A stretch of 33,212 bases of DNA, from positions 1-33,212 of the forward strand of contig JAIMBC010000025.1 of assembly GCA_023511675.1 (NCBI GenBank). Reading direction: 5' to 3'. Under the pieces are notes generated by a model. It did no database searches. It saw only the letters and a list, made by a program, of their open reading frames with translations, and was not told the origin of the DNA. The stretch comes from Pirellulales bacterium. GTDB taxonomy: Bacteria > Planctomycetota > Planctomycetia > Pirellulales > JAIMBC01. A program made the translations under genes and the position numbers. Below are positions 9,371-12,971 of the stretch, piece by piece; within the stretch, counting starts at the first letter, position 1; the number at the start of each line of letters is the position of its first letter.

Positions 9371-10027
9371 ATGAGCACCAGCACCAAGGCCGCGCGAGCC
9401 GCCCTGCTCAATCTGCCCAACCAGCTCACCGTCTTGCGATTGCTCCTCTCCCTCGTCCTCTTCGCGCTGCTCGAGCTGCGCCTCTATCTGGCCAGCTTTC
9501 TGGTGTTCGTCATCGCCGCCAGCACCGATTGGCTCGACGGTTATCTTGCCCGCAAGTACCAGCTCATCACGACCCTGGGCCGGATCCTCGACCCCTTCGT
9601 CGATAAGATCATCATCTGCGGCACCTTCATCACGCTGGCCGCCAATCAGGCATCGCGCGTGATGGCCTGGATGGCCGTGCTGATCGTGGGCCGCGAATTG
9701 CTGGTGACGGCGCTGCGGAGCTTCCTCGAGCAGCAGGGGCGAGATTTCTCCGCCAGCCTGTCCGGCAAGCTGAAGATGGTCGTGCAGTGCGTGGCGGCGG
9801 CCACGTGCATGGCCTTGCTTTACCTGGATGCGGCCGGGCCAGCCGTCCAGGCAGCGTGGCCGGCCCCCCTGGCGAGTGTGCTGTGGAAGGGCCTGCTCCC
9901 GCTGCTCGATACTCCCTGGCTCGGGCCATGCACCAGCGTGGACCTGCTGTTGTACCTCACCGTGGGGATCACCTTGTACTCGGGAGTGGAATACGTGCGG
10001 CGGGCGGCGGCACTGGCGTCGGGGTAA
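9371..10027 (+). CDS. pgsA: CDP-diacylglycerol--glycerol-3-phosphate 3-phosphatidyltransferase
   Basis: PgsA makes phosphatidylglycerol phosphate from CDP-diacylglycerol and glycerol 3-phosphate in the inner membrane, the committed step to phosphatidylglycerol. The 218-residue protein contains the full CDP-alcohol phosphotransferase motif: Asp53-x2-Asp56-Gly57-x2-Ala60-Arg61-x8-Gly70-x3-Asp74-x3-Asp78. The opening NLPNQLTVLRLLLS is typical of PgsA rather than of phosphatidylserine synthase. Several hydrophobic segments are consistent with a polytopic membrane protein. It follows rimO by 12 bases and precedes the CPBP gene by 3 bases, so the three are very likely one operon. Confidence 0.95.
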   Translation: MSTSTKAARAALLNLPNQLTVLRLLLSLVLFALLELRLYLASFLVFVIAASTDWLDGYLARKYQLITTLGRILDPFVDKIIICGTFITLAANQASRVMAWMAVLIVGRELLVTALRSFLEQQGRDFSASLSGKLKMVVQCVAAATCMALLYLDAAGPAVQAAWPAPLASVLWKGLLPLLDTPWLGPCTSVDLLLYLTVGITLYSGVEYVRRAAALASG

Positions 10028-11316: not shown

Positions 11317-11416
11317 GAAACGGGGGCAACATCGAGCAGTTGGTACAGCGCGGAGGGCGGCAACCATCCTCTCGCGCAAGTCCAATGGAAACGGGGGCAA
11401 CGTGGAGCAGTTGGTA
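11317..11416 (+). repeat. Two 29-bp direct repeats in the parA leader
   Basis: Copies lie at 11317-11345 and 11388-11416, 71 bases apart. Each starts GAAACGGGGGCAAC and ends GAGCAGTTGGTA, with two mismatches between them. They fall between the predicted promoter and the parA start, so they would be in its mRNA leader. They could be protein-binding sites (for example self-regulation by a ParA partner) or RNA elements. The GAGCAGTTGGTA part resembles a tRNA D-loop, but no acceptor, anticodon or T arm fits. Confidence 0.75.
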
Positions 11417-11443
11417 GCGTAGCTGGAAGAAGTGGGGTCTGCC

Positions 11444-12274
11444 ATGCGTTCGATCGCCATCATCAACCAGAAGGGCGGCGTGGGAAAAACGACCACGGCG
11501 GTCAACCTGAGCGCGGCTCTGGCGGCCATGGGCCGTCGCGTCTGCTTGCTGGATATGGATCCGCAGGCCCACGCCACGCTGCATCTGGGCGTGGAGCCGG
11601 GGCGCACGGGACACAGCATCTACGACGTGCTGGCCGGAGATTGCACCCTGGAGCAGGCCCGCCTGCAAGTGGCGGAGAACTTGTGGCTGGCCGGCTCGCA
11701 CATCGATCTGGCGGCGGTAGAGGTGGAACTGGCTGGGGTGGTGGGCCGAGAGCTTGTGCTGCGGGACCAGTTGGCGGCTGACACGGCCACGTTCGACTAC
11801 TTGATGATCGATTGCCCTCCTTCTCTGGGCATTCTGACGCTCAACGCCCTGGCCGCCGTGGACGAGGTGTTCATTCCATTGCAGCCTCACTTTCTCGCCC
11901 TGCACGGCCTGAGCAAGCTGCTGGAGACCATCGAGCTGGTGGCCAGGCGGTTGAATCCGAGGTTACGGTTGAGCGGGGTGGTACTGTGCATGTTCGAGTC
12001 GGGCACGCGCCTGGCGGCAGAGGTATCTCACGACGTGGCGGAGTTCCTCAGCCGCACGCGCGGCCGCGCGGCGCCGTGGGCCGAGGCCCAGATATTCGCC
12101 ACGCGCATTCGCCGCAACGTGCGGCTGGCCGAGGCGCCCAGCCACGGCCAGACGATCTTCAGCTATGCCCCCACATCCACAGGGGCCGAGGACTACCGCT
12201 TGCTGGCAGAAGAGGTGCTTGCTCGGGCCGCGTGCAGCGAGCAGCACGCTGCGGAGCCTCGCGTTGCGGCATGA
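11444..12274 (+). CDS. parA: ParA/Soj-family partition ATPase
   Basis: A 276-residue deviant Walker-A ATPase. Its N-terminus shows the ParA signature KGGVGKTT (10-17) with the signature lysine at position 10, followed by LLDMDPQAHAT and MIDCPPSLGILTLNAL (Walker B region). The C-terminal ANT-like block RIRRNVRLAEAPSHGQTI is typical of chromosomal Soj/ParA proteins. ATP-bound dimers normally bind DNA non-specifically and position a ParB-parS complex or another cargo. No parB lies next to it, which is unusual for the chromosomal copy, so this may be an orphan ParA that places another cargo. GTG at 11432 is an alternative start, but the purine-rich GGAAGAAG at 11425-11432 fits the ATG better. Confidence 0.9.
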   Translation: MRSIAIINQKGGVGKTTTAVNLSAALAAMGRRVCLLDMDPQAHATLHLGVEPGRTGHSIYDVLAGDCTLEQARLQVAENLWLAGSHIDLAAVEVELAGVVGRELVLRDQLAADTATFDYLMIDCPPSLGILTLNALAAVDEVFIPLQPHFLALHGLSKLLETIELVARRLNPRLRLSGVVLCMFESGTRLAAEVSHDVAEFLSRTRGRAAPWAEAQIFATRIRRNVRLAEAPSHGQTIFSYAPTSTGAEDYRLLAEEVLARAACSEQHAAEPRVAA

Positions 12275-12707
12275 GGCAGTGGGCTTCAAGGGGCGTCAGC
12301 GGCAGGCGGTGATCGCGTTGCTGCCCCGCGCGGCAGCGCGGCTGCGGCGTTAGGCAGTTGGCCCGGAGTTCGCCGGCGGGGCTGTTGGCAGGCTGTGGCG
12401 CATAGCGGCAAGCCTGCGGTGTTTGGCAGTTCAGCGCGTAGCATCCGCCGCAGGCTGTTCATGGCGTGCCGCGCTCATGCACGGCGTCTGTCGCGCCCCC
12501 GGCAGGTAGGGGAACAGCGCGCTCGTGCGGCAGGTAACGTGCCGGCCAGGTATCGCGCCCCCTGCACGTAGGGGAACAGCGCGATGAACTCACCTGACGC
12601 AATCAATGGCAACATCGCGCCCTTTGTACGTGGGGGACCAGCACCTGGAGGGGAGCCGCGCACTCTTTCGCTCGCTTCGCCCAAGTCTTGCTGCCGAGTC
12701 TTGCTGC
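12275..12707. other. Intergenic region with CRISPR-like repeats
   Basis: No gene is supported in these 433 bases, which lie between the convergent parA and MoaD-like genes. The first 200 bases are GC-rich with several GGCAGTT elements and no clear terminator. The centre holds three regularly spaced repeats, described separately, and the right end holds a 12-base tandem duplication. Confidence 0.5.
12491..12645. CRISPR. Three-unit CRISPR-like repeat array without nearby cas genes
   Basis: Three 31-base repeats lie at 12491-12521, 12553-12583 and 12615-12645, with a period of exactly 62 bases and two unrelated 31-base spacers. Repeats 1 and 2 share 29 of 31 bases; repeat 3 shares 24 of 31 with repeat 2, like a degenerate terminal repeat. 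The core CCCCTGCACGTAGGGGAACA has a CCCCT/AGGGG hairpin and the GGGGAAC end seen in type I-E repeats when read in that orientation. The period is not a multiple of three and no frame reads through, so it is not coding. No cas gene is visible in the window. The small number of units keeps this tentative. Confidence 0.45.
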
Positions 12708-12708
12708 C
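12684..12708. repeat. 12-bp tandem duplication
   Basis: AGTCTTGCTGCC occurs twice (12684-12695 and 12697-12708), separated by one base. It ends at the stop codon of the minus-strand MoaD-like gene and looks like a slippage duplication. Confidence 0.7.
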
Positions 12709-12971
12709 TACCCGCCGCCAATGGCGGGGATGAAGTGTACCTCACTCTCGGGGCCTACTCTGGCCAACAGTCCGCGCGAGCTGATGGCGCCGTCGATGGA
12801 GACGGCCAGTCCCGCTGCCAGCTCGTCTTGCTGGCGCAGCCTGCCCTGTAGTGCAGGCCAGCGAGCCTCCAGCGCGGCGATGACCTGCCGCACGGTGGAG
12901 GCTTCTACCTTCACGCACTCGACCCCCTCTGTCAGCTCCCGCAGGGCGGCGGGGATGTAGACGGTGGCCAT
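12708..12971 (-). CDS. MoaD/ThiS-family sulfur carrier protein
   Basis: The 87-residue product has the beta-grasp features of the MoaD/ThiS family: VYIPAALRELTEG near the N-terminus, a central Val/Ile-rich segment, and a C-terminal GGG tail whose last Gly would carry the thiocarboxylate. MoaD donates sulfur to the dithiolene of molybdopterin. The gene starts immediately after the stop of the molybdenum-hydroxylase large subunit (TAG then ATG, no gap), so it is the last gene of that operon and probably supports cofactor supply for it. ThiS or an unrelated sulfur carrier is possible, but the operon favours MoaD. No moaE is in the window. Confidence 0.8.
   Translation of the reverse strand: MATVYIPAALRELTEGVECVKVEASTVRQVIAALEARWPALQGRLRQQDELAAGLAVSIDGAISSRGLLARVGPESEVHFIPAIGGG

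Follow-up and report, generated by a model that had tools for sequence, protein, structure and literature searches.

A miniature CRISPR-like array in a Pirellulales-like planctomycete: probable ectopic spacer integration within a genome-wide class of repeat-insert-repeat footprints

Spacer integration is not confined to CRISPR arrays. The 2018 work of Nivala reportedly found spacers inserted outside arrays, with the target duplicated, where the DNA resembles the native CRISPR locus; the off-target sites in E. coli reportedly numbered in the hundreds, and a few natural candidates were noted as well. To our knowledge, off-target spacer integration has mainly been shown with overexpressed Cas1-Cas2, and natural cases are few. 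Cas1-Cas2 overexpression leads to non-canonical integrations outside arrays (PMC11788318, 2025, citing Nivala 2018), and IHF-motif-like DNA increases such integrations (PMC9456107). CreTA and other ectopic CRISPR repeats comprise one or two repeats outside arrays, and their RNAs direct the resident Cascade (PMC9458426).

Canonical arrays of the order provide a second point of reference. The type I-E arrays of relatives (L184, L185, L188, L190 and L191) consist of 28-29-nt hairpin repeats with a CCCC-N8-GGGG layout and unique spacers of ~33 nt, at a pitch of 61 and occasionally 60 or 62. The type I-G arrays (L148, L151 and L153) have 36-nt repeats at a pitch of 71-79, mostly 71-74.

The window analysed here is a stretch of 33,212 nucleotides (positions 1 to 33,212) that makes up the entire contig C168, one contig of a 5.88-Mb, 422-contig, 94.6%-complete genome. 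The relatives of its ParA belong to Planctomycetota, the closest mostly being Pirellulales/Planctomycetaceae MAGs, and the genome is that of an uncultured Pirellulales-like planctomycete (a MAG). No genome of the same family was present among the relatives searched.

The window contains three repeat units, at 12491-12521, 12553-12583 and 12615-12645, and the spacings between them are exactly 62 and 62 bases, as an earlier note on this DNA had claimed. The identities it gave were also recovered: units 1 and 2 are identical at 29/31 positions, and the diverged unit 3 matches the other two at 22/31 and 24/31, the latter being the value reported before. The two spacers, which it called unrelated, are identical at 6/31 positions, which is chance level. 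A scan of 31-mer self-matches across the window at offsets 60-66 returned nothing above 22/31 except offset 62 at the array, and the 22-base repeat core has 2 copies in the window at up to 3 mismatches, with a shuffle expectation of 0. The array of three units at a 62-base pitch is thus confirmed.

The array is better cut into 29-nt repeats and 33-nt spacers, and both spacers begin with G. With repeat 12552-12580 followed by a spacer from G12581 as the reference cut, repeat 1 lies at 12490-12518 (12491-12521 in the previous delimitation), insert 1 at 12519-12551, repeat 2 at 12552-12580, insert 2 at 12581-12613 and the diverged repeat 3 at 12614-12642, all given without a strand. The G+C content of insert 2 is below that of the genome (45% in the 31-nt cut). 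The CCCCT/AGGGG hairpin claimed for the repeat is intact in unit 2, but the stem of unit 1 lacks the T-A pair and that of unit 3 is reduced to the outer C-G pairs, with U-G pairs possible in plus-strand RNA. Repeat 3 would be the oldest end of the array.

The resemblance to type I-E noticed earlier is borne out by the anatomy. Like I-E repeats, the window repeat is laid out as TTCCCC-N8-GGGG, and the 29 + 33 cut gives the I-E geometry of 28-29-nt palindromic repeats and ~32-33-nt unique spacers, at a pitch of 62 compared with the usual 61 of the relatives. However, the I-E handle is absent, the window having GCGCGATA where the 8-nt handle of relatives is of the GTGAACCG or ATGTTTC type. The repeat sequence is unique to this site and matches neither the I-E nor the I-G repeats of relatives. 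Beyond its two copies, it has no match in its own genome, in 397 genomes of the order, or in the genome_contigs and viral_contigs sets.

The array occupies a convergent intergenic gap between the end of a parA-like ATPase gene (11432-12274, plus strand; Pfam AAA_31, 186 bits), which we regard as a neighbour only, and a ThiS/MoaD-like gene (12708-12971, minus strand). When the same locus was compared in relatives, alignments stopped within parA, and the matches on the moaD side lay on other contigs. An Rfam search of the region gave nothing but a sub-threshold match to the nadA riboswitch, away from the array. Directly 3' of parA, weak repeats (17/20) occur at 12265-12284, 12340-12362 and 12412-12431 with spacings of 78 and 72; they are possibly an older and more decayed footprint beside the array.

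We surveyed direct-repeat spacings in 1.62 Mb of the same assembly (28%), with intergenic DNA set by a home-made codon-model gene map. Once short tandem repeats (<40) are excluded, the histogram of intergenic spacings is low and near flat except for two peaks, one at 58-63 (20 pairs at 61 and 9 at 62) and one at 71-73 (18 pairs). At a threshold of 22/28 identity, 30 loci have spacings of 60-63 and 19 have spacings of 70-74, against ~0.16 loci at each other offset. The 61/62 peak is absent from coding DNA, where spacings are mostly multiples of three. The relatives' parA regions, with 124 kb of intergenic DNA, served as a control and hold 2 loci of the 61 class and 2 of the 72 class, little or no excess over controls; at the density of the host genome, ~12 loci of the 61 class would be expected there. 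The relatives' parA regions thus lack an excess like that of the host genome. By linear extrapolation from the 28% surveyed, the whole genome would hold ~105 loci of the 61 class and ~65 of the 72 class.

Each peak has its own duplication length, and both lengths are those of CRISPR subtype repeats (28-29 bp and 33-36 bp classes). Duplications of the 61/62 class have a median of 28-29 bp and flank an insert of ~33, and the identity of the best 28-nt window is 0.875 inside and 0.26 just outside. Duplications of the 72 class extend past 28, to about 33-36 bp (median 33-34; 36 in clean cases). Young examples include L240 (28/28 bp repeat, 33-nt insert), L254 (27/28, 33-nt insert), L250 (36/36, 36-nt insert) and L267 (37/37, 34-nt insert). 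A 72-class pair is present in the window itself, upstream of the parA start (11317-11345 and 11388-11416, without a strand; 27/29, spacing 71).

The inserts are of spacer length and unrelated between loci, and no family common to several loci was found among the repeats or among the inserts. Repeat and insert both differ from locus to locus, so that a common transposon or a common binding motif does not account for the class. A G/C bias at the end bases of inserts is suggestive at most (p=0.09), and the coding-like signal of inserts by codon score is not significant. Searches of phages, plasmids, viral contigs and the sampled part of the genome yielded no protospacer for the inserts, and the two window spacers likewise matched no phage, plasmid or viral contig. 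The class and its geometry can hardly be doubted.

Several other repeats were noted. On contig C4 (L195 2069-2225), three GCCCCCC-TTGCAA-GGGGGGC hairpins follow directly after a gene stop at a pitch of 58-59, slightly shorter than that of the main class. A dispersed intergenic repeat of the GGAGGGACGCGCTCCGTCGCGTCCGG type recurs in the same genome (L194 12875, L204 1393, L110 2927-3076 and L249 18290), sometimes at a spacing of ~109. In a relative, a 62-base tandem repeat (L182 15389-15600) lies ~300 bases past a decaying I-E array; its entire unit is conserved, and it was rejected as a footprint and taken as an ordinary tandem repeat. Tandem repeats of the CCACGCATGCATGGC type 3' of parA in a Gemmataceae MAG (L066 1330-1460) have a short period, outside the 61/62 class.

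Together, our results suggest that the window array is probably an ectopic ('neo-') CRISPR locus produced by off-target Cas1-Cas2-type integration, and that the same process left the footprints of the genome. It is the membership of the array in a genome-wide class that points to ectopic spacer integration. We propose a model in which an integrase with I-E geometry, making a 28-29-bp staggered target duplication around a ~33-bp insert, would first have inserted a fragment between genes, at a hairpin-containing site that belonged to no true CRISPR array. A second fragment, inserted later beside the duplicated repeat, would have given three repeats and two spacers, all of which would have decayed since. 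Because units 1 and 2 are near-identical and unit 3 is diverged, the second insertion would have taken place on the low-coordinate side, in the manner of leader-end growth of a neo-array. Integration with I-E geometry (pitch 61/62) and with I-G geometry (pitch ~72, ~36-bp duplication) would then account for dozens of intergenic footprints.

There is good reason to suspect a Cas1-Cas2-type enzyme. A ruler-like integrase with inserts of ~33 or ~36 bp and duplications of 28 or 36 bp is what off-target Cas1-Cas2 integration would be expected to look like, and the footprint geometries are the I-E (28+33) and I-G (36+36) numbers of the relatives' arrays. Counting against it are the lack of Cas1, Cas6e and protospacers in our searches and inserts that are not measurably coding-like; the inserts would presumably represent captured DNA. 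The footprints share extra-array spacer insertion and target duplication with the E. coli case. In E. coli, however, the enzymes were overexpressed, whereas here dozens of natural, fixed and decayed footprints with two geometries occur in one genome, and several reach at least 3 repeats, unlike the overexpression case. The pitch of ~72 and the 36-nt repeats of canonical I-G arrays match the second footprint class, but the footprint repeats are locus-specific and are not CTTTCCGCG...CCATTGAAGC. They also differ from CreTA in being locus-specific, and a matching effector was not found.

The most serious alternative, which we nevertheless consider unlikely, is that the window array and a second array on contig C54 are remnants of an ordinary I-E-like CRISPR locus that has lost its cas genes, separate from the single-insert footprints. 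The C54 array came from a loose repeat search of the same genome, which holds no longer array with the window repeat itself; the C54 repeat is related, not identical. It is a decayed array of 62-base pitch (L109 9483-9960) with CGCTCCCCTTCACATAGGGGTCCAGC-type units at 9483, 9545 and 9607, decayed copies near 9669 and 9731, and unrelated sequences between units. Its hairpin, CCCCT-N6-AGGGG followed by NNCAGC, repeats the pattern of the window repeat, and the two arrays share the I-E layout, the pitch of 62 and more than two units. Against this, the 8 bases past the hairpin are unlike the I-E handle of relatives, I-E cas genes were not detected, and dozens of loci whose repeats are unrelated show the same geometry.

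The cas genes that the genome does contain are of another type. Neither Cas1 nor Cas6e was found in the 94.6%-complete assembly. Contig C246 (L108 15486-20000) encodes a type I-G Cas3g (699 bits) and its Cas3-extension partner, and a Csb2 fragment at the extreme end of this contig indicates that the I-G operon was cut by the assembly. In the relative L148, a Cas4g-Cas1g fusion and Cas2 lie near cas3g. A resident I-G array was rejected as the source of the window repeat, the 36-nt I-G repeats of relatives being unrelated to it and the I-G repeat not being found in the assembly. The suggestion that the array is an orphan relying on cas genes at another place in the genome is therefore not supported by these data, and the interpretation offered by the earlier note is, overall, partly supported.

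Tandem regulatory or structural hairpins, such as protein-binding sites or terminator-like elements held at a fixed helical phase, are an improbable explanation. In their favour, 61-class repeats have a higher hairpin propensity than intergenic DNA taken at random (p=5e-5), which the inserts do not; the enrichment is weaker in the 72 class (p=0.09). Spacings of 62 and 72 bp are close to 6 and 7 helical turns, and the convergent intergenic location would also suit such elements. Yet no motif is common to the loci, three-unit arrays are few, and phasing gives no reason for duplication length to differ, as it does, between the 61 class and the 72 class (p=0.0006). The resemblance of the targets to hairpins also speaks for ectopic integration, strongly in the 61 class and more weakly in the 72 class.

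A ruler-based mobile or repair mechanism unrelated to CRISPR, making 28-36-bp duplications around 33-36-bp inserts, would fit an assembly in which the integrase gene was not found, but its chances seem slim, as both geometries match those of the order's two CRISPR subtypes and the inserts have no common sequence. Binding sites for a partition protein, proposed because the array adjoins the ParA-like gene, have practically nothing left to recommend them: ParB is absent among the annotated neighbours, the gap is convergent and not a promoter, the relatives' parA regions hold nothing similar, and the 61/62 geometry recurs in dozens of other, unrelated intergenic places that differ in repeat sequence.

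We lean, somewhat less firmly than for the window array itself, to the view that a single lineage has accumulated ~100 or more intergenic ectopic integrations of I-E-like (28+33) and I-G-like (36+36) geometry, and that some of these expanded into neo-CRISPR arrays with several spacers. Dozens of natural footprints with two geometries in one genome would be new, whereas the E. coli overexpression cases are already known. CRISPR finders will list loci of this kind as 'orphan arrays' or else overlook them. The footprints are graded in age, their identity ranging from perfect down to ~65%, and would permit natural off-target rates and target preferences to be measured, and a genome so dense in footprints would permit testing whether new CRISPR arrays arise by off-target integration. 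If the proposed reading is true, CRISPR adaptation is a genome-wide mutagen and a natural source of new arrays.
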